Source: Candidatus Hodarchaeota archaeon
GTDB lineage: Archaea; Asgardarchaeota; Heimdallarchaeia; Hodarchaeales; Hodarchaeaceae
Assembly (NCBI GenBank): GCA_016840035.1
Contig: JAEOTC010000038.1
Coordinates: 1 to 64,000 of the forward strand
Reading direction: 5' to 3'
Length of the DNA stretch: 64,000 bases
In this document: piece after piece, positions 35,780 to 55,004 of the stretch
Layout: each line of letters starts with the position of its first letter
How positions within the stretch are numbered: position 1 is the stretch's first letter
Program-made: the position numbers and the translations under genes
Notes under the pieces: generated by a model
What the model was told of the DNA's origin: nothing
Databases searched by the model: none
What the model saw: the letters and a program-made list of their open reading frames with translations, nothing else

Positions 35780-36748
35780 CTAGCTAATATTATTAGCAAG
35801 TTTAAAGCCAAGTACTTGCCAAGCAAGGACATCTTTAATCATGATATTCGCCGTTGATATAGGATCTTTCCTGATAAGACGTCTAAGACCATTCATGACT
35901 CCTAGCATTATACGTATCTCAGGTTTGAGTAATTTAAATTCAGGAATAATCGGATTAATTTCTCGCATTGCTGTAGTATAGATGAAATCTTGATCATCGA
36001 GTTTCCCTTCCGAGTGTGCTTTACTAAATATCTCCCACATCTGGTTAAAAACATGTTCAGCCTCATCTAAAACAGTTTTTGCTTCATTGTCTATGATACA
36101 ACCAAAATGACATAAACTAATGGTATTATAATCAATATTTTTAAGTTTTTGAATTGTAGAATGGAAATCTTTCTTATTACAAAACGGAGGTAAAATCGGA
36201 GGTAAATATGCGTTATCGCCAGCTTTCATACCGATTGCATCCCCGACAAAGATGTTTTTATTCCTTTCATCGAGGATGGAGATGTGATCGGAAATATGTC
36301 CAGGTGTGTGATAAATCTTTAGAGAGATCCCACCAAGATCAACAGTGTTTCCCTCACTCAAGGGGGTTACATCCTTGATATTCTGAAAACTCCCCTTTTG
36401 ATCAAAAACGTTGTTAAATGACTGATCTTCAAGCAAAGGAATAGCCTCAGTATGGGCAAAAACCTCAATTGCTTTCTGTTCTTTTAACGCTCTTTGTCTT
36501 AATATGGGAACTCCCTGACAATGGTCCCAATGAGAGTGTGTCAGGATAATATAATCTGGGGGAAAGGCGTCTAGCTGCTTTAATGCTTTAATAATCCGTG
36601 GTGCGCCTGATCGTGTCCCACTATCAATTAAACAAGACTTCTCTGCTTGAACTAAATATACTCCTCCCGCGCCTGCAACATCAACATAGCCAAAATCAAT
36701 TAGAGTGGTATTGGAATTTATAGGTCCTGGTATCCTCATTCCAGTCAA
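35780..36748 (-). CDS. metallo-beta-lactamase-fold hydrolase
   Basis: ILTHSHWDHCQGVPIL, YHTPGHISDHISILD, FVGDAIG, SLCHFGC. Confidence 0.88.
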   Translation of the reverse strand: MTGMRIPGPINSNTTLIDFGYVDVAGAGGVYLVQAEKSCLIDSGTRSGAPRIIKALKQLDAFPPDYIILTHSHWDHCQGVPILRQRALKEQKAIEVFAHTEAIPLLEDQSFNNVFDQKGSFQNIKDVTPLSEGNTVDLGGISLKIYHTPGHISDHISILDERNKNIFVGDAIGMKAGDNAYLPPILPPFCNKKDFHSTIQKLKNIDYNTISLCHFGCIIDNEAKTVLDEAEHVFNQMWEIFSKAHSEGKLDDQDFIYTTAMREINPIIPEFKLLKPEIRIMLGVMNGLRRLIRKDPISTANIMIKDVLAWQVLGFKLANNIS

Positions 36749-38653: not shown

Positions 38654-39106
38654 TTAGTGGACGACTAAACTAGTTCCACAATTAGGACAAAATTTGGCTT
38701 GGGCAGTATTTTGGGTACCACATTTGATACAAAAGTTAGCGATTTGTCCAACTGGAGCTTGAGGAACGGGTTGAGCACCTGCGTAATATTGTTGACGAGG
38801 TTTGTTCTGGTAACGGATCGGTTCAATAATCCAATAGTATAAAGGACCACCAACCATAATGATAAAACCTACAAAGACCATCAACATCCAGATAGGATTA
38901 AGTAACGAGGAATCATAGCTTTGACCATATTCTTGTTTTCCAATAAAACTTAAAGCAGCAAAAATCGAAGCAACTAACCAAAAACCAAAACCAAAAATCC
39001 CAACACCAAATCCGCGTAAAAAACGCATTTCCTCATCATCCTCAAGTTTAGGTTTGTAACAAGTGGGGCTTATAAAAAGGTTTGGAGGGAAGGGGAAAAA
39101 AACCAA
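38654..39106 (-). CDS. membrane protein with C-terminal zinc ribbon
   Basis: Two TM segments then FCIKCGTQNTAQAKFCPNCG. Confidence 0.6.
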   Translation of the reverse strand: MVFFPFPPNLFISPTCYKPKLEDDEEMRFLRGFGVGIFGFGFWLVASIFAALSFIGKQEYGQSYDSSLLNPIWMLMVFVGFIIMVGGPLYYWIIEPIRYQNKPRQQYYAGAQPVPQAPVGQIANFCIKCGTQNTAQAKFCPNCGTSLVVH

Positions 39107-39210: not shown

Positions 39211-39286
39211 AAAAATGAAAAGAGATGCCGTTTAAACGGTAATCTCAATGCTTAGCTCACGTACCAGCTCTTTGTAGTGATATCTC
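39211..39286 (-). repeat. degenerate copy of TFB 3' end (copy 1)
   Basis: Minus strand reads ...RYHYKELVRELSIEITV* and then palindrome CCGTTTAAACGG; aligns with the end of the TFB gene at 53.99 kb. Confidence 0.8.
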
Positions 39287-39392
39287 CCTAGTAGGGTGAG
39301 GAATACGAAAACAAGAAGGAATTGAAGACTTCGTTTCCTCCCAAAGTATTTTGAATGATTACATAACTGATTCCAGTATTATCCGCTGACTG

Positions 39393-40253
39393 GTGAATGA
39401 TATGTGTAAATACTGCTATCAACACACTCGGAAAATGTGGTATCTCGAAAAAGAATCCTTTGATATTAGATCAGGTAGATTCATGAAAATATTGCCAGGT
39501 AGATTCAGAGAACTGTGGTATAATTTTTACGCTCCTAAGTTACAATCGTTTGTTGATGGAACTACTGGTGACATTGGAGCGAATCCTGATCGTGAACCGT
39601 ACAAGGGTTTACAAAAGATGTTTTACAATTATTTCGCAAAGAACTTTTTAGGTGGTCAGGTCGTTAGCTCCCTCGATGAAATGATGCAAGTCCTTGATCA
39701 AGCAGAAGATATTTTTGTTTCATATTGTTCTTGTAAAAAAACCGCTGGCGGGGGAGAAGATTATCGATGCCTTTTTCTTAATCACAACGCCCGATTTACT
39801 AGAAAACGGCAACTCCAAGGGAAAACAAACAATGAAGGACGTTTCATCGACAAAGATGAAGCAAAAGAAGTAATTCAAGAAAAACGTCGTTTAGGTCATT
39901 ATGGCACAGTTCTGTGGGGATTACGACCGAAAGTAGATTGCATTTGTAATTGTGACCAATATTGTGCGGGTTTATACACTCCCGAAATACGATGGGGATT
40001 ACTACCCTCCTTCACTATTTCTGTAATCGTCGATTCTGATAAATGTGATTCTGATTGTACAGTATGCCTTGATCTTTGTTACCCAAAAGCCATTACAAAA
40101 AATGAGGACGGATTAGTGACTTCAATAGATAATTATCTATGTATAGGCTGTAATCTGTGTGTTGAGAATTGTCCAAATGGAGTTTATGATTCTCAACCAC
40201 GTAAGATATATTATGACGCTTCTATTGGTAAAAAACGCGTATTAGAATATTGA
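39393..40253 (+). CDS. 4Fe-4S-cluster protein
   Basis: CDSDCTVCLDLCYPKAI and CIGCNLCVENCPNGVY; further Cys motifs (SYCSCKK, CICNCDQYC). Confidence 0.7.
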   Translation: MNDMCKYCYQHTRKMWYLEKESFDIRSGRFMKILPGRFRELWYNFYAPKLQSFVDGTTGDIGANPDREPYKGLQKMFYNYFAKNFLGGQVVSSLDEMMQVLDQAEDIFVSYCSCKKTAGGGEDYRCLFLNHNARFTRKRQLQGKTNNEGRFIDKDEAKEVIQEKRRLGHYGTVLWGLRPKVDCICNCDQYCAGLYTPEIRWGLLPSFTISVIVDSDKCDSDCTVCLDLCYPKAITKNEDGLVTSIDNYLCIGCNLCVENCPNGVYDSQPRKIYYDASIGKKRVLEY

Positions 40254-40290
40254 TGAAACTATAACAGAATGAGATAAAAACAACAAGATG

Positions 40291-40379
40291 AAAAAGAAAG
40301 GAGATACCGCCTAGACGGTAATCTCAATGTTTAGCTTGCGTACGAGTTCTTTATAGCGATTTCTCACGGTTACTTCGGA
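40291..40379 (-). repeat. degenerate copy of TFB 3' end (copy 2)
   Basis: Minus strand reads GFSEVTVRNRYKELVRKLNIEITV* followed by the CCGTCTAGGCGG palindrome and A-rich tail. Confidence 0.88.
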
Positions 40380-40469
40380 AAATCCGAACAGCTATGCAAG
40401 TATCTCAAGGGTAGAGAGATGAGAAGATAAAGTTTATAAGATCTGAAGACTCCTAGAAATAGGATAAGT

Positions 40470-41063
40470 ATGAAAAAAAATAACCGATGTCTTCTTCAGC
40501 TTGTCATTCTAATAGTACTTATCTTGAATCTAATGACAGGGTTAAAACTAATCCGAGGAGGAGAGATGAAAAGGGATCAACTCGTCCAAGTCGAATTATT
40601 ACTATTTCTAAAGGCTGTTCCCATGGAAGATTATCCTACAGCGGTTTTCAGTGGAATTGAAGACTATCAGGTTTGGACTGGAAATGTAACGGTCAATGGC
40701 TCAGTCGCTACAAATAATGACCTCAAAGAAGCAGTTGTGACCCTCAAAAATCGAACGTCAACATTTCTTCACACGAATTTAACGCTAACTAAAGATACGG
40801 ACTACTTAGGTCCGAAAAATCTAGCCTACTTATTCGAAGTAACACTTAATAGTAATGAATATCCAAATGGGTCGTATACATTGTTTTTTCATTTTCTAGA
40901 TACCAAAGGTGCCGGAATGATTTATCATTGGGACATCAGGATAGCTAATGCTTCAGATCATCTCTCTCCAGCAATAGGCCTCCCTCTGAGTTTCCTCACA
41001 CTGTTTTCTATTATTACCATTCGTCGAAAAGTTCCACGACTATTCAAGGAAGAGAAAAAATAA
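40470..41063 (+). CDS. secreted/membrane-anchored protein
   Basis: N-terminal signal-like hydrophobic segment; C-terminal TM followed by basic tail (IRRKVPRLFKEEKK). Confidence 0.5.
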   Translation: MKKNNRCLLQLVILIVLILNLMTGLKLIRGGEMKRDQLVQVELLLFLKAVPMEDYPTAVFSGIEDYQVWTGNVTVNGSVATNNDLKEAVVTLKNRTSTFLHTNLTLTKDTDYLGPKNLAYLFEVTLNSNEYPNGSYTLFFHFLDTKGAGMIYHWDIRIANASDHLSPAIGLPLSFLTLFSIITIRRKVPRLFKEEKK

Positions 41064-41124
41064 AGGAGAGAATACCTAGACGGTTATCTCAATACTAAGC
41101 TTACGTACAAGCTCTTTATAAATG
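41056..41124 (-). repeat. degenerate copy of TFB 3' end (copy 3)
   Basis: Minus strand reads IYKELVRKLSIEITV*, peptide identical to TFB from YKELV to the stop with synonymous differences. Confidence 0.85.
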
Positions 41125-41698
41125 GAGTTCTCAATCTTTTATTATGTACTTGCACTTCGGCATGATTTCAGTCAGTTTTGAATGAGAATCCTGAAAAGGA
41201 TATAGTGAGGAAATTTTTCAAATCACGAAATACTCCATTCTTATATGCGTGAAGGAGGGATAATTGAACATTTGTACTATTCTCCAATATATATAGGAAA
41301 TTATCCTGATGGGGACTGGAATGAATCATATGAGCTTCACGATTATATAGGGGGTTATATTATGGGTGGAATGAACCCCACATGGTATTTGCATCCTGAT
41401 ACAGAGAACAGAGTTTATAAAAATCTAGATCAATGGGATGGACCTATTTAATGATCTTTAAAAGAGAGCTCATTTAAATTTAAAAAAAGAGAATAATAAC
41501 TATAATTTGTAGGGTTAATTAACCATATGTTCACATTTCAAATACAAAATAGTTCTCGTGGAAATCGTAAAAATGTGTGATTAATGCATTATATGATAAG
41601 TATAAAAGCAAATAAAGGACTAGAAATTACTAGTTTTTTTCAGTTAACTGAAAAAAATAAGAATTCAGTAAAAAAGACTTGAATGAGCTGAAAACAAG

Positions 41699-42763
41699 AT
41701 GAAAAGGGGAAAAAGAGGATATTATCTATTATTAGTGAATCTGAGTCTGGGGTTATTACTATTACTAAGTGGATGCACGCTATTACCAACGAGTGAACCA
41801 GAGGAGATATTATCATTTGATCCAAATACTGCAACCATATATAATCCGAAAACAAACATTTCAGAGAGTTTTTATGTCAGGAACATGAACAGGAGTGGTA
41901 GTACTTTCTACCATGAAGATCAAATGAAAATTATAGTCGGAGTAAGAGATTCTAAAGGACTTCCAGGAGTAGCTGTGAATTTACATTTGAGAGTTATCTT
42001 TGACTGGTATGGAAATACAGATATTGTAAATTTAACAGAAGAATTCGGCCTCAAAATGACCACTAATCAATCAGGAGCGGTGTGTTTGATTTGTACATAT
42101 AATCAATATACATGGCCTCAAGGGTCTTATACCACTGAAGGAATACTTGAGATTTCTTCTTCTCAGCTAAATAATACAAGAGGATCCTCTGGAAAGCTAG
42201 ATTTTACCTATTATCATAAAGAAATCACACGAAATTCAACAGTAGAGGGGGGGATAGCAGTTATAAATGCTTTAGAAAAAATGAATCTGATAGAAGAAGC
42301 CAGTTTACTCGGTGGGGAAGACAACCTATACCCAAACTGGAATAGTCAATATTATGAATACTACGATATTAATCAAGTAATATTAAACCAATCTACCATT
42401 GAATTCTATACTAATTATCGCCAGCAACCAAGAGTTGAAGTCTACTATGTAGCATGGACAATCCTGTACGAAGAAACGAATTTAACATACAATATCATCA
42501 GAAATAACTGGAGTACATATATTGGGGAAGATTATGGATCTTTACTGATCAGTGATGAATATCTTGGAGAGAATTGGCTAATAACTGAACCAATCACAAA
42601 AGTAAATCTTACAACAGGTTGGTTAGTCATGCAAATTTTATATATTGATTCATTCCAAGAACCACTAAACGGTTGGACAAGAGTAGTTTATCAAGTTAGC
42701 CTTGTAACCATAGATATGCAACTTCGATGGTTATTATCTAGTTCCTTTACAGCAATAGCCTAA
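41699..42763 (+). CDS. putative lipoprotein, uncharacterised
   Basis: Signal peptide with lipobox-like LLLLLSGC, beta-rich extracellular sequence. Confidence 0.55.
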   Translation: MKRGKRGYYLLLVNLSLGLLLLLSGCTLLPTSEPEEILSFDPNTATIYNPKTNISESFYVRNMNRSGSTFYHEDQMKIIVGVRDSKGLPGVAVNLHLRVIFDWYGNTDIVNLTEEFGLKMTTNQSGAVCLICTYNQYTWPQGSYTTEGILEISSSQLNNTRGSSGKLDFTYYHKEITRNSTVEGGIAVINALEKMNLIEEASLLGGEDNLYPNWNSQYYEYYDINQVILNQSTIEFYTNYRQQPRVEVYYVAWTILYEETNLTYNIIRNNWSTYIGEDYGSLLISDEYLGENWLITEPITKVNLTTGWLVMQILYIDSFQEPLNGWTRVVYQVSLVTIDMQLRWLLSSSFTAIA

Positions 42764-42943
42764 AAATTCGGAATTAACTGAAGATACTTGAACTAAACAT
42801 TAATATGCGTGTTAACCGAGAGGACTGAAAAATTCCACATTTCTAGTAAGAAATCTTTTTTTTCCTTTATAGACTCGGGAGAATTGTTGAAACTGAAGAA
42901 TGAAACCTTGGATATGTGATTTAATCCCTTCCACCCAAAACGA

Positions 42944-43021
42944 GAAAAAAGAAAGGAAATCCCGTCTAGGCGGTAATTTCGACACTAAGTTTGCGTACGA
43001 GCTCTTTGTAGCGATTTCACA
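42944..43021 (-). repeat. degenerate copy of TFB 3' end (copy 4)
   Basis: Minus strand reads NRYKELVRKLSVEITA*; palindrome region CCGTCTAGGCGG on + strand. Confidence 0.87.
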
Positions 43022-43170
43022 AAGTAAGTTCATGTTTAGAATAAGAATACAACAATTAAGATATTTAATTGTTGAAAATCAAATCCTTCATTAATTCACT
43101 ATCGAATAGAAAATCACAAATAGGAGAGAGTAGATGTGAAATACGCTTCCTTTTGAGGGATGAGATAAAC

Positions 43171-44142
43171 ATGAATGATATAGAATTGCTGCTAGTTTTT
43201 GGTATTACAATACTCATTTCGTCAGGAATTACCTTTTTTATCCTCAGGTATTTCTTTGCTACACGACTGAAAGGTATAGAAAAATCATCTGATACAATCT
43301 CTAAAATATCTGAGGGAATGGTTCAACAATCTAATAGCTTCATTGATCTAATGAAAAACAGTCTTAATACGCTACAGACGGACGTAATGGGACAATTAAA
43401 AGAATTACGGGAAATGTCTCGGGATCTTCAGACTACTCAAAAAGATACTCAGAGCTCTTTCGAAAAATTTGTCAGTTTAGTACGTATGCGTCCCCAAACA
43501 AAAGGCGAAGTAGGAGAAGGTATCGTACGTTGGGTATTAAGTTCATTACCAGCAAATTCATGGAAAGAGCAAGTAACAATCTCCGGAGGACGGGTAGATT
43601 TTATAGTATATTTACCACCAGATCAAGAAAAAGTTCTCATTGATTCAAAATTTAGCTTTCCAACAGAATTATTAGAATCCGATAATCTAGTTGCTGCTGA
43701 CCAACAAACCATCAACAAAATTAATCGAGGGATAATCAAGAGAAGTAAAGAACTCGAGAAATATTTAGTCCCAGAGAATACAAATATCGGTTTTTTACTC
43801 ATGTACATTCCAGATATACTATTTTCCTACCTATCTGATACCACATTTAAAGAATTGACAGGGAAGAAAATTATTCCAGTTAATGTGTCAGGTCTTTTAT
43901 CAACTTTATTGATAATTTCCCGTCAAATTCAAGTATTTCGAATTGGCGAGGCTATTTCGCGTTTAGAATCAATCAAAACAACTTTCGACAGTGAAATTGA
44001 TGCTATTCAGAAGATAACTAAAACAAGTAAAGGTCAACTTCAGAAAGCACTCACAAACGTCGAAAAAATCGATGTTCAACTTGATTCCACTCGACGGAAG
44101 ATTTTTAGAGAGTTTGGATTAATTGAAGAAGAGAGTACTTAG
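43171..44142 (+). CDS. rmuC: RmuC-family protein
   Basis: N-term TM, coiled coil, KGEVGEGIVRWVLSSLP...GRVDFIVYLPPDQEKVLIDSKFSFP, GFLLMYIPDILFSYL; ATG at 43171 preferred over the 43069 start. Confidence 0.8.
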   Translation: MNDIELLLVFGITILISSGITFFILRYFFATRLKGIEKSSDTISKISEGMVQQSNSFIDLMKNSLNTLQTDVMGQLKELREMSRDLQTTQKDTQSSFEKFVSLVRMRPQTKGEVGEGIVRWVLSSLPANSWKEQVTISGGRVDFIVYLPPDQEKVLIDSKFSFPTELLESDNLVAADQQTINKINRGIIKRSKELEKYLVPENTNIGFLLMYIPDILFSYLSDTTFKELTGKKIIPVNVSGLLSTLLIISRQIQVFRIGEAISRLESIKTTFDSEIDAIQKITKTSKGQLQKALTNVEKIDVQLDSTRRKIFREFGLIEEEST

Positions 44143-44159
44143 GATTAAAGAGAAGGCTG

Positions 44160-44957
44160 GTGAATTTAATGAGTAATTTGAAAGATAAATCAAAAATTTG
44201 TCCATATTATCAAAAACCATGCTTATTAGAGAAGTGTCTTGCCTACAGTGGTGAGACTTGCCTAATTATTCCTTTGGGGAGATTAGAAAGGGAAACTACT
44301 ACAAAAGTGCCTGTAATCCTCAAGACTAAATCCATAAAAGAATTAGCAGAAAAACTTGCTGATTATTATTTGGAAAAATATCCCGATGGAGAAAATTATC
44401 GATATACTGACACTTCCCTTTTCTGGAGCAATAGAATTGGAGTGAAAGAAATCTATAACCTCCCTTCGGACATCCAAGAAAAGATTCAAGATGTGGAAAG
44501 ACTTGCAGAGGACATAACAGAAGATAGGAAAATCCCCGAAGAATTAAAGAGCCAAAAACCTGAGAAGATAGCAGAAAACATGGTCAAATGGGCAGAAAAA
44601 AATTTTGATATCACTAGATATGTATATTTTAGAAAATACTGGGGATCCAAAGGATTGCCCGAATCTTATTATTTTTCAGATAGATATCGGCCGAAAGCTG
44701 AAAAATGTGAGTTACTGGCTGAACAAAAATTAGAGGAAATTCGTGAAAAGAGAAAGAAGGAGAAAAAAGAGAAAGAGAAACAGCAAGCATTAGCTGAAAT
44801 CGATAATATCATTAAATGGTTAAAAGAGAAACGGTTGGTGAAGCTCTCAAAAGCGAATTTAAAGCTTTATTTTTCTGAAATAGGTATGAAGGTCTCTCCC
44901 ACTAATCGTCAGAATGTATACATAAGGGTAAATGAAATTTTAAAACAAGAAAAATAG
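44160..44957 (+). CDS. uncharacterised protein with N-terminal Cys cluster
   Basis: CPYYQKPCLLEKCLAYSGETC; K/E-rich helical C-terminus. Confidence 0.45.
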   Translation: MNLMSNLKDKSKICPYYQKPCLLEKCLAYSGETCLIIPLGRLERETTTKVPVILKTKSIKELAEKLADYYLEKYPDGENYRYTDTSLFWSNRIGVKEIYNLPSDIQEKIQDVERLAEDITEDRKIPEELKSQKPEKIAENMVKWAEKNFDITRYVYFRKYWGSKGLPESYYFSDRYRPKAEKCELLAEQKLEEIREKRKKEKKEKEKQQALAEIDNIIKWLKEKRLVKLSKANLKLYFSEIGMKVSPTNRQNVYIRVNEILKQEK

Positions 44958-45013
44958 GGGGCTAAGTGATAAAAGTGATAGACCTAGAAATTTATAGCGA
45001 TGGAGGGTATTAA

Positions 45014-45874
45014 TTGAGGAAAACTCGAAATAAGAGAAGTACAAGTTTACTATTAATTTATATTGCCATCAATCTTGGTTTAATTCTCCCAATGGGAGTA
45101 TCAAACGCACTAACCACGAATAGAACACAGAATGAATATACACGAACATTTACTTGTAATAAAGACGCGTATGTAGACTCTTCGAACCCAACTTCAAACT
45201 ATGCTAATGCAGATTTAGAGGTTTCAAACTCATCATATCGAGCAAGACGTTCTTATCTATCCTTCGAAATTCAAGACCTACCTTCAGATGCTGATATAAA
45301 AGAGGTAACATTCGGATTAAGCGTGAAATTCTTGCCTTATGATGACCATACCGTTCCATTAGATATTTGGAAAACAACTTACTTTGATGAAGATATCGTT
45401 ACTTGGGAAAATTGTCCTCAAAGAACTGTTCTCATGATACAAGTCGATATTGCTGAAAATAAACGCTGGAGCATTCCACTGGAAAACCATGGCATTACTG
45501 GAAATTTAAATCTCTATATTTGCTTATCCACCGATCTCGACAACTCTGCACCCATTACATTCGATTCTAGAGATGATATGTGGAATCCACCAAGAGTAGC
45601 AGTTACTTTCGAAGCATTATCCATCGATGAAAGTCCAAATGGAACAGTAGACTTAGTGATATTCCTAATTTTACTTGGTCCAATTGGAGGAATTGGATTA
45701 GCAATATTTCTAATGGTGAGAAAATCAAATAAGAGAAAAACAAGTTTTAGTATTGTATATCAAGAACCGAGAATTTCTCAAAAATCCGTAACTATAGACC
45801 AATTTTGTGGCCAATGCGGTGCTCCTCTGGATTCGACGAATGTTTTCTGTCCGTCCTGTGGGAAGAAACAGTGA
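45014..45874 (+). CDS. DNRLRE-domain secreted protein with TM and C-terminal zinc ribbon
   Basis: CNKDAYVDSSNPTSNYANADLEVSNSSYRARRSYLSFEIQDLPSDADI; TM; FCGQCGAPLDSTNVFCPSCGKKQ; start assigned upstream of ORF methionine. Confidence 0.7.
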   Translation: MRKTRNKRSTSLLLIYIAINLGLILPMGVSNALTTNRTQNEYTRTFTCNKDAYVDSSNPTSNYANADLEVSNSSYRARRSYLSFEIQDLPSDADIKEVTFGLSVKFLPYDDHTVPLDIWKTTYFDEDIVTWENCPQRTVLMIQVDIAENKRWSIPLENHGITGNLNLYICLSTDLDNSAPITFDSRDDMWNPPRVAVTFEALSIDESPNGTVDLVIFLILLGPIGGIGLAIFLMVRKSNKRKTSFSIVYQEPRISQKSVTIDQFCGQCGAPLDSTNVFCPSCGKKQ

Positions 45875-47036
45875 GGATATACTTCTTCGTGAGAAGTTAA
45901 AACTGGGTGAAATTTTGAATAGAACTAATCTCATGAAACTATTTCAGCTCGAGGATAACCAGGAAATTTTTGATTTAGCCCTTACTCCAAAATCGTGTGG
46001 TGGAGGTGACGAATTCAAACTTTTAGCCCTTTATGGGGATAAAATCATTGACTTAGCTCTGATCATTGATTTTTCAAATCAAGGATTCACAAATACGGGA
46101 GTAATCTCACCTGCTATTGATAGCTTTCATAATGAAGATGCTCTCAACGCACTAGGAAGATATCTAGAAATCGATCATTTGATGAATCCACTTGATAAAT
46201 CCAAACCGATCTCAGATGGTGATGTGAAAGAAGGAGTAGAAGCTCTTATAGGAGCAGCATATCAAAAACATGGATTAACCACATGTATCAAAATTGTTCA
46301 ACGTCTATACGAACAATCGGAATCTTTTTCTACAAAACCGGGAGAGGAAAAAGCTACTATCCTGACGGAAAACTTGGTAGGGATGTTACAAGAGTGGTTA
46401 GCAAGCCAAGGCCTTGGAATACCTGTTTATGAAGGGATACGAGTTGGAGGAACTAATGACAATCCATTATGGAGATGTCAAGTTTCATTTGAATATCATG
46501 GAGAAAAAGTCAAGGAGAAAAGTGATATTTTTTCCAATAAAAGACTCGCTAAGAAGAATGCAGCCCAGAAAGCATTGGTTGCATTAGGAATAAGGAAAGA
46601 TAATGTAAGCAGAGTTTTTGGGTCGATTCAGGAGGTGAAAATTCCTGAAACAGCAACTCAATCTCTCCAAGAACGAGAAATTCTCTTTACCAAAGGAGGG
46701 AGGGGAGGGCATTTTATCACAGGAGAGATACAACTAACAACTCAAACGGGTGAAACTGTCTTAGAATGGGCAGAAAAGAAGATAAAAAAGAATCCTTATG
46801 GAAGCTTGATTCTCCTAAGTGCACGTTTAGAGGAAATAAGTGGATCTTCTTGGTCAACTTCCTTGGAGGATCAGGAGCTAATTCTACTAAATATTGTTAT
46901 TGAAGACATGCCCTATTTTGAAATAGGAAAAGGAAAGTCAAAAACAAAAGCTAGAAAAGATGCTGCGCAAAAAATAATAAGATCATCTAATCTTATCAAA
47001 TGGATTGCTCAAAAATATTCAACCATACTAATCTGA
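45840..47036 (+). CDS. RNase III-like protein with two dsRNA-binding domains
   Basis: GGGDEFKLLALYGDKIIDLAL and DVKEGVEALIGAAYQKHG (RNase III); dsRBD1 TENLVGMLQEWLASQGLGIPVYEG...AKKNAAQKALVALG; dsRBD2 ending GKGKSKTKARKDAAQKII. Confidence 0.78.
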   Translation: MFSVRPVGRNSEDILLREKLKLGEILNRTNLMKLFQLEDNQEIFDLALTPKSCGGGDEFKLLALYGDKIIDLALIIDFSNQGFTNTGVISPAIDSFHNEDALNALGRYLEIDHLMNPLDKSKPISDGDVKEGVEALIGAAYQKHGLTTCIKIVQRLYEQSESFSTKPGEEKATILTENLVGMLQEWLASQGLGIPVYEGIRVGGTNDNPLWRCQVSFEYHGEKVKEKSDIFSNKRLAKKNAAQKALVALGIRKDNVSRVFGSIQEVKIPETATQSLQEREILFTKGGRGGHFITGEIQLTTQTGETVLEWAEKKIKKNPYGSLILLSARLEEISGSSWSTSLEDQELILLNIVIEDMPYFEIGKGKSKTKARKDAAQKIIRSSNLIKWIAQKYSTILI

Positions 47037-47041
47037 AAATG

Positions 47042-47128
47042 TAAAAATTAAGGAGATACCATTTGATTGGTAATTTTCATACTAAACTTATGTATGAGCC
47101 CTTTGTAGCGATTTACCAAGTAACTCCA
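47042..47128 (-). repeat. degenerate copy of TFB 3' end (copy 5, most diverged)
   Basis: Minus strand reads NRYKGLIHKFSMKIT (stop lost); same A-rich flank and palindrome position. Confidence 0.7.
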
Positions 47129-47374
47129 ATCACTGTTACTCGTTTAAGTCAGAAGGGTACAATATTTTCTTCCTGTGTGGAGAAACAATGGAAGATAAAA
47201 AAGTAAATAGCAATTAGCAAAAAAGGGAGAATTCTGTTGAGAATGTGGAAATTATGTTTTAAGATGGAGTTGAAGTAATCGCAAACAGAGAAGACCAGTT
47301 TAAGGGAGAAATATATTGATCCGTTTCCCGTACTCTTAGCATTAAGCATTCTACTAATTGTTATATATATAATA

Positions 47375-48115
47375 ATGCTAATTAATCCTTCAATTTATGA
47401 TCTACTAGAAATGAACAGATCAAATCCCTTTAGTATATTAACTAGTCTATTAATCCATGATCTAGATAATTCAGCACATTTAAGCGTGAATTTGGGGGCA
47501 TTATGGATTTTTGGTTATATTGTAAATATCCAGACAAATCGATTTCGAATGCTAATAACTTTCTTCGTATGTGGTGTATTAGCAAATATATCTACGGTGA
47601 TTTTTTCAGATTTAATAAACCACCTATTTTCTACTACATTCACAAATTGGGCTGTTTCTTCTAGACATTGGATCGGAGAGAATTTACGTGTTGTTCCATC
47701 ACCAAACGGAGGAGGAGCTTCAGACGGATTGATGGGGCTAGGAGGATTTGCTCTCGCTTTAGCTATTGACTTTTTAATTATTAATTTACATGAAGCTTAT
47801 AGAATCAGCCGTAATTCAACCAATAAATACCTAATAATACTAATTGATCGTCTGAATCAGTCAATTGTGGATACCTGTGTAAATTGTGTTGGGATTCTAG
47901 GAATTTTAGTTCTTTGGGCAGGATTAATTATGGATCTTGAAATGTTTTATTATGTTTTAACTTTTAATTACGCAGCAGCAAACGGAGAACTGTTATCTTA
48001 CCCGACATCAGACGGGCATCCGTTACTAGCCCATGCTTTTGGAGGATTGATAGGATTTATCATCGGGATCTATTATACTCGGTTCTTTCAAAAGGGGATA
48101 AGAAACTCCAATTGA
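47375..48115 (+). CDS. rhomboid-family intramembrane protease
   Basis: SAHLSVNLGALWIFGY, GGGASDGLMGLGGFALAL (GxS), HAFGGLIGFIIG; multi-TM. Confidence 0.72.
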   Translation: MLINPSIYDLLEMNRSNPFSILTSLLIHDLDNSAHLSVNLGALWIFGYIVNIQTNRFRMLITFFVCGVLANISTVIFSDLINHLFSTTFTNWAVSSRHWIGENLRVVPSPNGGGASDGLMGLGGFALALAIDFLIINLHEAYRISRNSTNKYLIILIDRLNQSIVDTCVNCVGILGILVLWAGLIMDLEMFYYVLTFNYAAANGELLSYPTSDGHPLLAHAFGGLIGFIIGIYYTRFFQKGIRNSN

Positions 48116-48185
48116 CATGAGAGTGAAATACAAACAAGAAAAAGATGAGGGGAATACTTTACTTTGGAAAGACTTCCAATCAAAC

Positions 48186-50042
48186 TCAGAAGGATTGGAA
48201 TCGGTTCCTTAAGACTGCACGAAGGTTTCTGAAAGAGCGAAACAGCTGCAAATTCGGAAGATGATGTTGATTGAACATGGCACGATTATCAAGAATTAAC
48301 CCTGTGGCTTGATCTACTTCAGAGCGAATAGCACGCCCCAAACACTGGCGGACCTGTGTGAAGAGATAGCGTTCTATTAACGTCCATTTAACAAAATGGA
48401 GATGACGATAACGGTTAAAATAGAGTCTATAAAGCAAATTGTACACCGGAGTGGGTGCTGGAAAGGGTAAGCCTATTAAAATCACCATTCGTACACGACT
48501 TCGGCCAGTTTGAGGATCTCGAACTTCGACTCCTTCACTAAACTTCCCGCCATAAACTGCAAGCACCACACTTGGGTCCCCATTCATTAATTCAGAGAGG
48601 AATGTAATCTGACCCTTTCTAGGTTCACGATAGAGAGACAGTTTTTCATTCAAATGCTCTTCTAAAAGTGGAAATAAGTCATCAAGAAACTCATAGGACG
48701 GGACAAAAACCCAGGTATGATCAGGAATTTCAAGTGCGACCTCCTTCACAGTTTTTGCACACCAACGCAGGAACTTCTTTGTACGATTACGATGAGAACT
48801 ACTCACCTGCGGATGAATAAATGCAGCCACAAGTAATTGCTGAATACGCGATTTAGGAGTAGGAACGTGGTGCAAATGGTACATATTCCACGGTTTTTTT
48901 TTTAATCCATAATAATGCGAGTAATATTTGAGATATTGAAAAGTGGCAGAAAACAGCACTGTCCGGGAGAACTGCCGATTCACATATTCAAAGATTTTCG
49001 ATGGATAGGGATCGAGTTGAACTAATCCTTCCTCCGTGTTCACCCAATATCGGCCTTGACGCTCAACAAAAGAGCGCACAGCCAGTAAAGCTTCTAGATC
49101 GAGAGGAGAAAGAGAATATCGAATACCTTTCTGATGAAGGAACGAATCGATTTGAGCTAGATAAGAACGATCAAGAGTTGGGGGACGTTTAACATACCCA
49201 TACTTTCGCTGGCATAGATTTTGCAGAATTTGCACAACAGGAAAAGCTCCGATTGACTCAACCAACGAAAGTTGTTTCCGAGTGACTGTAGCCTCTATTG
49301 TTGGCCCAAAATTGTGAGCTTCATCAATAATAGCGAATCTATGACTCCAACGAAAACCATAATCATGCGCTTTCCAGGTGAATCGAGACAGGGAGCGCTG
49401 GAGAGAGTGAGATTCCAAATATCCCTGCGGGAGTAATATAATATTAGCCTGAGGAAGCAAACGTCGGATGACTTGAGCAGGACAGCCATAGGGAGTGAGA
49501 AGCTCCTGAAAACCGGCAAATGATGAAGGACAGTGCTGGAGGGATATTTGAGGAAGAATCTCTCTTAGAGAGGATAACGGTAAAAAACGAGTTTTTTTCT
49601 TTCGAGGACAATGAAAACAGTCATTTTCAGGAGGTAAAGGACAGAGATCTTTGCTAGCGATCAAAGGAAGTAAGGTTAACTTGTCTGCCGGAGGGTTAGA
49701 GTAATATTCTTTCAGAGTTTTGAGAAACACTGATCTAAGTTGTGCTTTGGTTTTAGAAAAACACCAGAGTTGATATTCACCGGTCTTCATCAGATCCCAG
49801 AAGGCAGAAAACGCGGTGACGGATTTACCAAACCCAGTGTAGGCATTAATCGCAATTCGGGGATAAGCAGCAATTAAAGCTAGGACCTGTGCCTGACCAC
49901 GACGAAAGGAGGGAAAAGGAAAATGCTGGCGAATTTCAGGGGGCAATTCTTCATCCTTGAAAGACGAATGAGCCGCACCTGCTTTAAAAGCATCTGAATA
50001 ATAGATAAAAATTCCCTCAAGAAGGTTTTCCCGTATACACAT
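48186..50042 (-). CDS. divergent XPD/Rad3-like SF2 helicase
   Basis: Walker A INAYTGFGKS, DEAH box IIDEAHNF, Cys-rich insert (C..C..C), motif VI QVRQCLGRAIRSEVDQATGLILDNRA. Confidence 0.8.
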   Translation of the reverse strand: MCIRENLLEGIFIYYSDAFKAGAAHSSFKDEELPPEIRQHFPFPSFRRGQAQVLALIAAYPRIAINAYTGFGKSVTAFSAFWDLMKTGEYQLWCFSKTKAQLRSVFLKTLKEYYSNPPADKLTLLPLIASKDLCPLPPENDCFHCPRKKKTRFLPLSSLREILPQISLQHCPSSFAGFQELLTPYGCPAQVIRRLLPQANIILLPQGYLESHSLQRSLSRFTWKAHDYGFRWSHRFAIIDEAHNFGPTIEATVTRKQLSLVESIGAFPVVQILQNLCQRKYGYVKRPPTLDRSYLAQIDSFLHQKGIRYSLSPLDLEALLAVRSFVERQGRYWVNTEEGLVQLDPYPSKIFEYVNRQFSRTVLFSATFQYLKYYSHYYGLKKKPWNMYHLHHVPTPKSRIQQLLVAAFIHPQVSSSHRNRTKKFLRWCAKTVKEVALEIPDHTWVFVPSYEFLDDLFPLLEEHLNEKLSLYREPRKGQITFLSELMNGDPSVVLAVYGGKFSEGVEVRDPQTGRSRVRMVILIGLPFPAPTPVYNLLYRLYFNRYRHLHFVKWTLIERYLFTQVRQCLGRAIRSEVDQATGLILDNRAMFNQHHLPNLQLFRSFRNLRAVLRNRFQSF

Positions 50043-50817
50043 GAGGAGTCAAAGGTTTGGAAGCTTTTTTCTTCCTCTTTTTTGACCGAAATTCTCGAAA
50101 ATAACCCCTGAATTCTACCACTTGATCATAGATCTTGTGTGTCCACGAATTTTGCCAGAAACGAATCCGATGTTCTTTGTGTTTTAATTTCGTAATATAA
50201 CAGAAATAGGGAAAGGCCTCCCAGGGGTGGGTTTGAAGCAACTTATCGAGATCCCCACGAAGAGTAACGAGAAAACCCATCTGTTTAAAGGAAGCGAGGG
50301 TAGCAAAACCCCTCAATCCACTCGGGGGAAGAAAACAGGTATCATATCCGTCAAAAACTAAAGCTGTAAGCATAGGATGTCTAAGAATAGGTTTGAAAAA
50401 TTCACGGTCGAAACTCTTGGCAAATAAAGTGTGTTTATCAATTCGACTTAGATAAGAGGTGGGAAGTTGCTTTTGAGATCGGAAATTAAGGACACGAAGA
50501 ATACGTTGAACCTGATAATCCTCATTGAAATCGTAATACAAAATTTGCCATGGTTTTGGACTGCTCAAGAGGCAGGAGGCAACGAGTTGAGCAAGAAACA
50601 GGCTTTTTCCAGCGTTTTCCGGACCAGCAATGATAATGGGCCATTGCCAGAACCAGCCACCTCGCCATGTTCGATCCAAAGACTGTAAGTACGTAGGGAT
50701 CGGTTTACGTGGAGGAAGGGAACTATCGCACGGAACAGCATGTTTAATAACTTGGGATAACAAATCATCTAAAGACTCGGAGTCATTCCTAGATGAGAGA
50801 GGTTTTTGAGAAACCAA
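50017..50817 (-). CDS. RecA/RadA-superfamily ATPase
   Basis: Walker A IIIAGPENAGKS, Walker B-like ALVFDGYD; overlaps downstream helicase start by 26 nt. Confidence 0.65.
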   Translation of the reverse strand: MVSQKPLSSRNDSESLDDLLSQVIKHAVPCDSSLPPRKPIPTYLQSLDRTWRGGWFWQWPIIIAGPENAGKSLFLAQLVASCLLSSPKPWQILYYDFNEDYQVQRILRVLNFRSQKQLPTSYLSRIDKHTLFAKSFDREFFKPILRHPMLTALVFDGYDTCFLPPSGLRGFATLASFKQMGFLVTLRGDLDKLLQTHPWEAFPYFCYITKLKHKEHRIRFWQNSWTHKIYDQVVEFRGYFREFRSKKRKKKASKPLTPHVYTGKPS

Positions 50818-50912
50818 AAATATACACCTTCCATTTACTAGATATCGGGTTGTCCCCTTTTATATCTGAAAAGATCTAGAAAATTGGAAGAGGACCCAAG
50901 CTCAAGTACTTT

Positions 50913-50922
50913 TGAATATATA
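50913..50922 (+). promoter_or_regulatory. candidate TATA box for the 50.95-kb hairpin-rich leader
   Basis: tgaatatata(a), expected spacing would place transcription start near 50945. Confidence 0.3.
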
Positions 50923-50944
50923 AGGGAGGGGCAGAATCTAGTAC

Positions 50945-51830
50945 GGTTCTCTCTTTAGTACCATTCAGGCAGCTATAGTAGGTGAGAATTGTGAATGACC
51001 ACTCACAATGATCTTCACATACGTAGCGAAAAAGTGCTAGTCGCTAGCATTTGCCTTGCACTTGCTTAAAGAGGCAGGTGGATAAACAAACACGGTTGAA
51101 AACCGATGTTGGCAAGTGAAACACGAGAAAGTAAGAGGAAAACTATCCAGTTATGGCAAACTGGAAAATTTAGTCATATTTTGTTCGTGAATGAACTGGC
51201 CCTGTTTCCTCAGAAGAATCAGGTAGATAAGGTTCAAGAATCAGATCAATTAAACCTGGTTCAAGGTACGGATACGAAAACACAAAGAACGCGGAATCCG
51301 CAAAGACAAACAATAACCCCAATCCAATACCCACCAGTATACCCTCTTCAACTGGGAAATACTGGCCTTGTCGACTCTCCAAGGTGGATCGAGTCACACG
51401 ACAAGCAATTCTTTACGAAGGAAACGAAAACCCCACACGAAGGGAAAATGGAACAATACCCAAAAGAACAACACCAGCGTTTAATAACAAAACAACCATA
51501 TTCGACTTACACTCACGGTCAGGAAGAGACGCGGAAGTGTGTGTCAGTCAAGCGGAGTGTATCCACTCAAAACCATATCCAACTACCACGGGAAAGCATC
51601 CCTCCCAAGGGTGCTAGGCCTCAGAAGAGATGTGTCGTAAGACAGGTCTCTTCTGAGGATCCCACGAATATGGGCCCTTGTCATGGTGACATGACCAGGG
51701 TAGGTAGATACTCTACCCAAGGTGAACTGACGATGTCACAAACCAACCCTCTTCCTACGGAAGGAGGGGCGCAGGCCCCACTTCCTGACCGTGTCATCAC
51801 GGGGCAAAACGCCCCATGGCCGGTCGTCCC
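50945..51830 (+). ncRNA. candidate structured RNA leader overlapping the start of a LAGLIDADG-like ORF
   Basis: Dense perfect hairpins, incl. 12-bp stem 51619-51630/51647-51658 with an inner TGTC-GTAA-GACA (GNRA loop), and 51676-51699 with a GTGA GNRA loop; predicted translation of this stretch is non-globular. Confidence 0.45.
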
Positions 51831-53214
51831 CGAAGAGTACACCTTCCAGGAGGTGTCTCTTTGGGAGTTTACCAATCTCTATGTCCTGTTGGGCAAAGAC
51901 GATTGGATTACCCTGTCAACATTGTTGCAGGGAATCAATCTCTCGGCAATAAGTCGAGAGATTGGGATAGGCGTATCCGTCCTATCCAACATTCGAGAAT
52001 CCCCCGATCAAACGATCGCGGTGGCGAATCTCGAACATCTCTGCCACTATGCAGGGATGGATCTTTCACAGGTCGAGCGAAACGCGCGAGCGGTTCGTTT
52101 TTCTAAACGAGGTGACCTGGAGTACCTCAAATTTCCATTCGTCATGGATATTTATGCCTGGCGAGTCCTTTGTCACATTGCTGGAGATGGTAATGTGCAT
52201 TTTCGCAAGTATCCTGATCTCCGGTGGATTCAACTCCCCGAGCATCAGGATCCAATGCGGACTCTTCTATCCAATCTGAGTCGTGATCCAACAATTGATT
52301 ACGAACGGATGATATATCCTAAGACATTAGCTTATGCTATCTTGGGAACCATTCGAGGGATCACATTCCGTGACCTTCGGACCCCTTCATTCATACAATT
52401 TGTACTTGATTTACCCAGTCGCTATCGTGATTGGAAAGTACAATTCCTTGCCGCTTTCATCGTAGATGATGGATGTATTGGTGAGGACATATCTATTTCT
52501 CAGAAGGATGAACGAGTCCTTCGCCTCATCATGCAACTATGTGATCAGTTGGGATATGATCATTCCCCGCTATATCCAAGTAAGCGTGATGGAGTAAATA
52601 ACTTTCAGTTACGTCAGGAAGGAATTCAAGCCTTCTTATATGATGTAGCGCCCCTTTATGCACGTGATCCACTTCTAGGTCTCTGGCATAAGCATACACA
52701 ACTCTTAACTGTTGCTAGTTCTTTTTCTTCAGAAAGAAAACTAGATCAAAAGTTATCTGTTCATGTGTGCACCACTATCCTTCAGATTTTGGAGGATGGA
52801 ACTATCTATTCCACGGATGAACTGCGTGTTCATCCAGCTCTTCAAGTTTATCTTGAAGGGTACCCATCCTATGTTTTAAACAGAAGATTGGGAATTCTCC
52901 ATCGTTCTATGAATCTCATTCATGAGGACATCAAGAACAATGGAACCTCTTACCGGCCTAAACGCTGGTATGTTCCTCGTTGTACTACTTCAGAACACTT
53001 GATTCAAGTGTTTCATGCGAAGTACAACAATCGTGCTCATCCACAATCCTACAAACGTAGGAACATTACTTCTCAGATGGTAGAGGACGCCATTGAGGAA
53101 CTTAGTGCGCAGGGGGTCAAACCTAGTGCACTAAATGTCTCTCGTTTCATAGGGTGCTCGAAAAAGCAGCTCTATAAACGAAAAGACTTACGGGTGTACT
53201 TCATTGGTAAATGA
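51733..53214 (+). CDS. LAGLIDADG-like endonuclease with flanking HTH segments
   Basis: Two LAGLIDADG-like motifs VLCHIAGDGNV and FLAAFIVDDGCIG; XRE-like 'AISREIGIGVSVLSNIRE'; C-terminal HTH; SD aaggtga 5' of ATG at 51733 (ORF track begins at 51106). Confidence 0.65.
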   Translation: MSQTNPLPTEGGAQAPLPDRVITGQNAPWPVVPEEYTFQEVSLWEFTNLYVLLGKDDWITLSTLLQGINLSAISREIGIGVSVLSNIRESPDQTIAVANLEHLCHYAGMDLSQVERNARAVRFSKRGDLEYLKFPFVMDIYAWRVLCHIAGDGNVHFRKYPDLRWIQLPEHQDPMRTLLSNLSRDPTIDYERMIYPKTLAYAILGTIRGITFRDLRTPSFIQFVLDLPSRYRDWKVQFLAAFIVDDGCIGEDISISQKDERVLRLIMQLCDQLGYDHSPLYPSKRDGVNNFQLRQEGIQAFLYDVAPLYARDPLLGLWHKHTQLLTVASSFSSERKLDQKLSVHVCTTILQILEDGTIYSTDELRVHPALQVYLEGYPSYVLNRRLGILHRSMNLIHEDIKNNGTSYRPKRWYVPRCTTSEHLIQVFHAKYNNRAHPQSYKRRNITSQMVEDAIEELSAQGVKPSALNVSRFIGCSKKQLYKRKDLRVYFIGK

Positions 53215-53250
53215 AGTCACTCCCATTCCCTTCTCTTTTTTTTTCATAAC

Positions 53251-53838
53251 TCAAACTTGATACGGAAGACTAGTTTCATCAAGTTTTACGATCTCATTTC
53301 CACTAATTGACCATGAGAACCTCTCACATGCTTCTTTGAAAACAACATCTGTTACTAGAAAATCCAGAATTCCTGAATCTTTACTAGAATCAAGGATTTT
53401 AACTTTTTTCCTTCGGGTCCACTCACGAAGTATTTTGATATCCTCAGTTAACTCCATAAGTTTTTGGAGAATCTCATCAAGAGGACGACATACATCAATT
53501 GCATATTTAAACGAGATGTAAAAGTGAATTGGTGTGCGAAACAAAGAGACTGGAGATTCTTGAGTAAAATGGTTTTTAATGGAATTTTCCACAAATCTCG
53601 CATCTTGAAGAGAGAGGGGGTTTTTTAGAGATCGAGATCCGTCATTATTCTTTTTGATTTGCACAATTACTTCTTGAACGAAGTCCTGGTTATTTATTGA
53701 AGGAAATCCATCAAAAATTAGTCTTTTACTTGTAAAATCAGTATAGTTTATTTGTGTGTATCTATCCTTGATTGCAAGAGGTGTATCTGAATAATTTTGA
53801 TTTTTAATCTCATTAGGGTTTTGTTCATCTTCTTCCAC
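53251..53838 (-). CDS. uncharacterised protein
   Basis: 195-aa ORF, no family recognised. Confidence 0.45.
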   Translation of the reverse strand: MEEDEQNPNEIKNQNYSDTPLAIKDRYTQINYTDFTSKRLIFDGFPSINNQDFVQEVIVQIKKNNDGSRSLKNPLSLQDARFVENSIKNHFTQESPVSLFRTPIHFYISFKYAIDVCRPLDEILQKLMELTEDIKILREWTRRKKVKILDSSKDSGILDFLVTDVVFKEACERFSWSISGNEIVKLDETSLPYQV

Positions 53839-53990
53839 ATATTTACCTCCTTAGAGTCAATAAACGTGAAGGATTTTTAGAAACCCAAGTTCATTAGATT
53901 GTTAAATCCTAACAAAAAAGAAGAACATAATGAAATTAAGAAAAAAAGAATCCAAGCAATTATTATAATAAAAAAGAAAGGAGATCCCGT

Positions 53991-55004
53991 CTAGACGGTA
54001 ATCTCGATACTTAGCTTGCGCACGAGCTCTTTGTAGCGATTTCTCACGGTAACTTCGGTAACGTGAGCGACCTCTGATATTTCCCGCTGTGTCCGTCGTT
54101 CTCCGTTGATTATCCCGCTGATATAGATTGCTGCGGCTGCTAGGCCGGTTGGGTCTTTTCCTGCTGTCAATCCTCCGGCTTTTGCGCGTTTTAGGATTTC
54201 TGCGGCTTTTCGTTGACAGACTCCTGATAATCGTAATTCTGTCCCAAACCGTACCAGATAATCTATGGGGCTTGCGAGGGGGATATTCAGGTATAATTCC
54301 CTGAGTAATAAGCGGTAACATCTGCCCAGTTCTTTTTTTGTGATTCGTGATTCTTTTGCGATCTCATCGAGTGTTCTGGGTACCCGGCGTACGCGTGCGG
54401 ATGCATAGATGGTTGCTGCGACCATCGCTTCTATGGAGCGTCCTCGTACTAAGCGTTTTTCTATGGCTTTTCGATAGATTATTGCTGAGGTTTCTTTTAC
54501 ATTGCGTGGTATTCCGAGTTGTGAGGCTAATCGATCCATTTCTGACATGGCGAATGCCAGATTTCTATCCATTGAGCTATGGACTCTTGTTCGTATTTGC
54601 CATTTTCGTAATCGATAGATTTGTGCTCGTCGTGAGGCTGTGAGTTTGTTGCCAAACGTATCTCGGTTTTCATATCCTATAATTGTTGATAAGCCTTTAT
54701 CATGTACTGAAAATGTGCTAGGTGATCCTACACGACTGCGTTTATCGCGTTCTTCGCTATTGAACGCACGCCATTCGGGTCCTTCATCTATTAATCGTGT
54801 TTCCAGTACGTAACCACATTTTTCACAGATTAGTTCGCCTCGATTTTCGTCGGCGACGATATCTGTGGATCCACAGTTTTTACATTCGAGGATTTCTTCC
54901 TCATCATCTACCTGGCCTTTTTTCTGTGGTTTTGCTTTTGCTTCTTTCATAAGTGCCATTCCTGAGCGTTCCTTCTCAAACTTGTGATTGCCTGGTCGGG
55001 GCAT
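53991..55004 (-). CDS. tfb: transcription initiation factor B
   Basis: Zn ribbon ECKNCGSTDIVADENRGELICEKCG, EWRAFNSEERDKRSRVGSP, cyclin repeats, C-terminal HTH TQREISEVAHVTEVTVRNRYKELVRKLSIEITV. Confidence 0.96.
   Translation of the reverse strand: MPRPGNHKFEKERSGMALMKEAKAKPQKKGQVDDEEEILECKNCGSTDIVADENRGELICEKCGYVLETRLIDEGPEWRAFNSEERDKRSRVGSPSTFSVHDKGLSTIIGYENRDTFGNKLTASRRAQIYRLRKWQIRTRVHSSMDRNLAFAMSEMDRLASQLGIPRNVKETSAIIYRKAIEKRLVRGRSIEAMVAATIYASARVRRVPRTLDEIAKESRITKKELGRCYRLLLRELYLNIPLASPIDYLVRFGTELRLSGVCQRKAAEILKRAKAGGLTAGKDPTGLAAAAIYISGIINGERRTQREISEVAHVTEVTVRNRYKELVRKLSIEITV

Follow-up and report, generated by a model that had tools for sequence, protein, structure and literature searches.

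The gene for a TFB/TFIIB homolog (tfb) in a Hodarchaeales genome is followed by displaced copies of its own 3′ end, with cargo genes lying between them. We think it probable (about 0.6) that homing-endonuclease-type insertions have stacked up one after another at the 3′ end of tfb, with a candidate homing endonuclease gene beside the tail as the likely driver. Replacement of the 3′ end by homing-endonuclease elements fits better than an integron-like or att/integrase mechanism because the tails diverge at synonymous positions only, share a start point and have a LAGLIDADG-type gene next to them. We directly observed the copies, their boundary, conservation at the protein level, the LAGLIDADG association, variation between genomes and, in some gene pairs, a hybrid signal. 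The analysed stretch of 64,000 nucleotides (the window) lies on the 142.8-kb contig C184 of a 4.3-Mb genome in 293 contigs (G000), whose closest relatives are MAGs under the labels Heimdallarchaeota or Hodarchaeota. Tails were surveyed in 12 congeneric Hodarchaeales genomes, G000 included; all compared genomes are MAGs, and several contigs terminate within arrays.

The intact tfb (53991–55004, minus strand) encodes a protein of 337 aa with Pfam TFIIB and Zn_Ribbon_TF domains and is the target gene of the proposed insertions. Its replaceable tail corresponds to the last ~70 nt (53991–54060, minus strand); together with a stop-codon palindrome and a T-run, the current functional tail spans 53967–54060 on the same strand, as delimited by profile match and alignment. 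Orthologs 94–99% identical to the window gene are found in G002, G007 and G009. A 4.9-Mb single-contig congener (G006) is without an ortholog of the array tfb, its best TFB matches being ~47% identical, so some congeners can apparently dispense with the array-type gene.

When the 3′ end of tfb was searched against the window with BLASTN, five further matches came up, all on the minus strand like tfb and downstream of it, as the initial annotation had claimed. Each comprises the last 16–70 nt of the gene plus 3′ flank. Counting outwards from tfb, tail 1 (47043–47114; 74% identity, E = 7e-7) is the most decayed. Tail 2 (42945–43031; 87%) reads NRYKELVRKLSVEITA-stop, tail 3 (41055–41124; 79% over 41055–41120) reads IYKELVRKLSIEITV-stop and tail 4 (40288–40381; 88%, E = 1e-29) reads SEVTVRNRYKELVRKLNIEITV-stop, all placed by BLASTN and, like tail 1, by alignment. 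Tail 5 (39211–39286; BLASTN, 83%) is the outermost and abuts a flank common to G002. The copies had been described as C-terminal codons with a stop; this holds for four of them, which retain 14–22 C-terminal residues and the stop codon, but not for tail 1, whose frame is lost. A search of the whole 4.3-Mb assembly recovered four of the five copies and matched none elsewhere. As a control, among the 50 window ORFs of at least 150 aa, repeated 3′ ends were confined to tfb and an ORF overlapping one of the copies, and no repeated 5′ end was found. The copies had also been said to be without a TFB body, and a search of the window with residues 1–312 agreed, giving a best other match of E = 0.10, with no body upstream of any copy. 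We thus ruled out decayed tfb paralogs.

The tails alternate with cargo that we assigned in part by Pfam. Nearest tfb (47375–51105) are genes for a rhomboid-like protein (47375–48115, plus strand), a DinG/XPD-like helicase (48186–50042, minus) and a RecA-like ATPase (50017–50817, minus); a homolog of the helicase is encoded on the tail-bearing contig of G003. Beyond tail 1, a block of four plus-strand genes (43069–47036; Pfam) encodes RmuC (43069–44142), an unknown protein (44160–44957), a secreted zinc-ribbon protein (45014–45874) and an RNase III/dsRBD-like protein (45807–47036). Three single-gene cassettes follow, all on the plus strand, for a lipoprotein-like protein (41699–42763), a secreted protein (40470–41063) and a ferredoxin-domain protein (39393–40253). 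Outside the last tail are minus-strand genes for a zinc-ribbon membrane protein (38654–39106), in the same position in G002, and a metallo-beta-lactamase-fold protein (35780–36748), which G002 and G009 also have past their arrays. Throughout 39393–47036 every cassette gene runs opposite to tfb, and two tails start no more than 10 nt from the stop codon of the preceding gene, a regularity not seen in all relatives.

Displaced tails occur in six of the 12 congeneric genomes, amounting to 17 tails at seven loci: five in G000, three in G002, one in G009, three in G011, three in G008 plus one on a second contig, and one in G003. The G007 contig carries tfb and the endonuclease gene and ends soon after them. 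All 17 tails keep one orientation relative to their array, which is that of tfb in the four arrays with tfb on the contig. Cassettes are mostly unshared between array-bearing genomes; a conserved cassette order across relatives was not seen. The relatives carry a solute-binding protein, an NYN RNase, VapC/PIN, ParE, an Arf/Ras-like GTPase, a helicase, and beta-helix and beta-propeller secreted proteins, and in genomes other than G000 the cargo genes lie in both orientations. The few shared items are a cassette for VapC (G002 and G009), a 97-aa protein (G011 and G008) and the protein encoded at 53251–53838 in the window (G000 and G002). The outer flank recurs: the metallo-beta-lactamase gene is present in G000, G002 and G009 and the zinc-ribbon gene in the first two, between which the DNA beyond the outermost tail shares 73% identity. 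Since the same genes return beyond the last tail, the insertions sit between tfb and its old neighbour. Serial insertion at the 3′ end of tfb is well supported, since congeners have such tails too, mostly between different cassettes, and three genomes share flanking genes. Of the initial proposal that elements integrated repeatedly at this site, serial insertion therefore stands, with variable cassettes and flanks conserved in three congeners, but its att/integrase route does not. No empty site at tfb was found in the related genomes; in sister families (G012 and G013) tfb has no tail copies within 4.3–4.4 kb downstream, but the window's flanking genes are also missing there.

Other Heimdallarchaeia carry downstream of tfb a separate ORF of ~95 aa for a lone C-terminal TFB cyclin repeat, a mini-TFB (L047:10999–11256, L057:1639–1881, L061:4783–5076 and L051:5616–5822), which directly follows tfb in L047, L057 and L061. 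As separate ORFs, these tandem C-terminal pieces were rejected as tails. Viral contigs contained neither tails nor the LAGLIDADG family.

Read in the tfb frame, most copies give YKELVRKLSIEITV-stop or nearly so, and differ at silent positions. The three G011 copies each match their own tfb at 22 of 22 residues, with 10–11 silent and no replacement changes; random substitution without selection would give about 8–9 replacements per copy. Most other copies also have an excess of silent changes, although the copies are not independent, so that silent/replacement probabilities are descriptive only, and an ungapped count is meaningless for the frame-less tail at 47043–47114. The displaced tails were therefore functional tfb ends during their divergence. 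Over 51 nt, the G011 copies have 2–3 differences each from a G008 copy (contig C97) but 7–8 from the tfb of G011; tails therefore move between species. Duplication of the host's own tail was rejected, the copies being silently diverged and resembling tails of other species.

The homology begins 64–73 nt before the end of the stop codon in 11 of the 17 copies and later in the rest, never further upstream. Some intact tfb genes change history at this boundary. Between G000 and G007, third positions differ at 18 of 22 codons in the tail and at 134 of 286 in the body (P = 0.001), and the tail excess is also seen between G009 and G007 (P = 0.009); the G011 tests are borderline, and several gene pairs show no excess. 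In some pairs, then, the intact genes look hybrid at the tail boundary. Past the stop codon, a motif near ATTCGGG(TGGA)GGGAGTTT recurs at 25–60 nt in many copies of both sequence groups. The stop-codon palindrome (CCGTCTAGACGG; tails of the window and of L063) is kept by paired changes in most copies of G000, G002 and G009, and persists even in copies that have no stop codon. It is likely a terminator and possibly a binding site. Its absence from G011 and G008 led us to reject it as a recombinase core. A pseudo-palindrome at the breakpoint, considered as an endonuclease site, pairs at 8 of 11 positions in G000 and is weak or absent in other genes; we did not count it as evidence.

Convergent to tfb in the window lies a gene for a candidate LAGLIDADG-type homing endonuclease of ~480 aa (51742–53214, plus strand; alignment of four homologs), separated from it only by a gene for an unknown protein (53251–53838, minus strand) that has a homolog in a G002 cassette and a probable one adjoining tfb in G007. 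The ORF opens at 51106 and homology starts at about 51742. In the alignment of the four homologs, the motifs HIAGDG and FIVDDG stand about 95 residues apart with conserved acidic residues; the N-terminus is HTH-like and the C-terminus weakly resembles DUF6262. By sequence the LAGLIDADG assignment is weak. Only the G011 homolog matches LAGLIDADG_3 (E = 5e-4, below the curated cut-off), and a PDB sequence search with the protein gave no match. Structure models are of low confidence (mean pLDDT 58–64); the best-modelled half superposes on I-DmoI and I-Tsp061I with an rmsd of 2.3–3 Å over ~85 residues at E above 0.02, fold matches that we used as support only.

G000, G011 and G007 have the full gene next to tfb in convergent orientation. 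In G009 only its 3′ end is present next to tfb; such remnants, cut at differing points, also adjoin displaced tails in G008 and in G011 (the third copy), and two G008 contigs end in one. A survey of 232 genomes of the phylum found the family in the array genus only. This recurrence of the gene or its 3′ end beside both tfb and displaced tails indicates that tails and gene travelled together. The three displaced tails of G002 have no LAGLIDADG trace, and in the window only the intact tfb, and none of the five displaced tails, has an adjoining LAGLIDADG gene. The fourth homolog (G001) lies away from tfb and is without the C-terminal part. It is flanked (L144:9870–12893) by an intact paralog of a membrane protein gene on one side and by an N-terminal fragment of 81 aa on the other, and may mark a second insertion site of the family. 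Cargo next to 3′-end-only endonuclease genes is often toxin–antitoxin-like, namely VapC/PIN, ParE with a small partner gene, or a DUF4258 protein (L123:3177–3933, L123:7030–7320, L157:1815–2259 and L036:11503–11916).

In the homing-type insertion that we favour, an incoming element would bring a replacement for the tfb tail (about 70 nt, encoding the same protein with different silent bases) and a terminator, followed by the convergent LAGLIDADG endonuclease gene and sometimes cargo. The endonuclease would cleave the resident tail and repair would copy from the element, a route that we infer. Joining of the new tail to the tfb body would leave TFB intact and the gene hybrid, and would push the old tail downstream; repeated rounds would then stack tails into an array. 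Homing genes erode once fixed. Here the endonuclease genes would decay from the 5′ end onwards until only their 3′ end adjoined a tail, while cargo such as toxin–antitoxin modules, nucleases and secreted proteins would persist. Our guess is that cargo enters by one-sided copying during repair or by recombination between tails. Against such a stack, the window tail nearest tfb is the most decayed, which is unexpected if every insertion adjoined tfb, and the single-gene cassettes are unexplained by homing alone.

The same footprint (a hybrid gene, a displaced tail, direct repeats and a substitute coding tail) would be expected of tandem tyrosine-recombinase elements with an att site in the tfb 3′ end, most of whose integrase genes have since been lost. 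The tails are present as direct repeats flanking inserts, and the paired changes that keep the palindrome in the G000 and G002 copies would suit a recombination site. As far as the available text of two reports goes (PMC6563490, PMC8371274), archaeal tyrosine-integrase elements resemble the tfb arrays in their 3′-end targets, which include protein genes, in their direct repeats and in accretion by tandem integration; unlike the tfb tails, thaumarchaeal att sites are generally short there, and no TFB gene is named as a target. We nevertheless consider this explanation unlikely. No array contig of the genus has a PF00589 match, Pfam scans found no integrase among the cargo proteins, and G002 and G009 each have a single PF00589 gene genome-wide. 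Archaeal tyrosine-integrase elements carry integrases and are usually larger; the cassettes of 0.6–1.9 kb have only one or two genes. Sequence outside the copies, where an attP half-site is expected, is not common to them, and the palindrome is missing from G011 and G008. An integron-like platform, as the initial annotation proposed, would use tail-derived sites, an integrase acting in trans (possibly a chromosomal Xer) and tfb as an anchor. The window's single-gene cassettes, in which a tail directly follows the gene, the toxin–antitoxin cargo and the single orientation throughout are what such a platform would give, and integrons, archaeal ones included, likewise form arrays of small cassettes with one gene each in places (PMC9668308). 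The tfb arrays differ in having no IntI-type gene on the array contigs, which as MAG contigs may not cover the whole locus, and no attC signature, a simple core-pair scan of 21 tails having found no R″/R′ pair; their repeats are protein-coding tails, under a TFB constraint that attC sites would not need, and cargo in other genomes lies in both orientations. An integron-like origin is thus very improbable. Casposons find no counterpart here, with no Cas1 among the scanned cargo proteins.

The tails might instead have served as homology blocks, with recombination between the tails or LAGLIDADG 3′ ends of different strains shuffling cassettes after one or a few initial insertions. The VapC cassette shared by G002 and G009 is preceded, before the tail, by homologous sequence, one gene occurs in both G011 and G008 in differing surroundings, and the two G008 contigs end toward the LAGLIDADG 3′ end, as expected if several versions coexist in the population. 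As a full account it is improbable, since recoded tails and a shared start point need another process and 75 nt at 75–90% identity make a poor substrate; homologous reshuffling probably adds to the cassette variation. We give almost no credence to the tails being functional terminators or regulators of neighbouring genes, spread by duplication of the host tail. A hairpin with a T-run, maintained by paired changes, is present in most G000, G002 and G009 copies, but coding conservation extends beyond the terminator, tails are closer to those of another species than to the host's, G011 and G008 have no palindrome, and the T-run points away from the preceding cassette genes.

To our knowledge, replacement of gene tails by endonuclease elements is known only from fungal mitochondria. 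Mobile ORFs with carboxy-terminal replacement occur there in Glomus (atp6, atp9, cox2 and nad3) and Allomyces macrogynus (atp6) (PMC3630166). Like the tfb arrays, they have an endonuclease ORF (LAGLIDADG or GIY-YIG in the fungi, the LAGLIDADG-type candidate at tfb) beside a conserved gene, a substitute C-terminus that differs mostly silently, the native C-terminus left downstream and a horizontal origin (PMC3630166). The tfb arrays differ in their archaeal chromosome and transcription factor gene, in a candidate endonuclease gene convergent to the host gene, and in up to five displaced tails per array with cargo between. The nearest Asgard report, as far as its available text goes, is HeimM2 of Heimdallarchaeum, a mobile element with cargo and a homing-endonuclease homolog between 16S rRNA and tRNA-Arg (PMC8813620). 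It resembles the tfb arrays, with their candidate endonuclease gene, in having a homing-endonuclease homolog at the end of a conserved gene and in its cargo, and differs in its rRNA locus; no duplicated gene end, recoded tail or array is described in that text (PMC8813620). On an open-access full-text literature search, tail-replacement arrays at tfb are provisionally novel.

A more specific reading of the homing-type stack is possible, and we advance it tentatively: a natural cleave-and-rescue drive in archaea, in relatives of the eukaryotic ancestor, in which a LAGLIDADG endonuclease would cut the C-terminal tfb codons and supply a silently recoded, cut-resistant tail, repeated rounds having built a gene-capture array with toxin–antitoxin and other cargo. 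If true, endonuclease-driven tail replacement, repeated until arrays formed at a Hodarchaeales gene of the TFIIB family, would extend to a cellular chromosome and would be a natural counterpart of engineered recoded-rescue drives. It would also be a route by which Asgard genomes accumulate accessory genes at one site, where the displaced tails tell in which order and from which source earlier invasions came.
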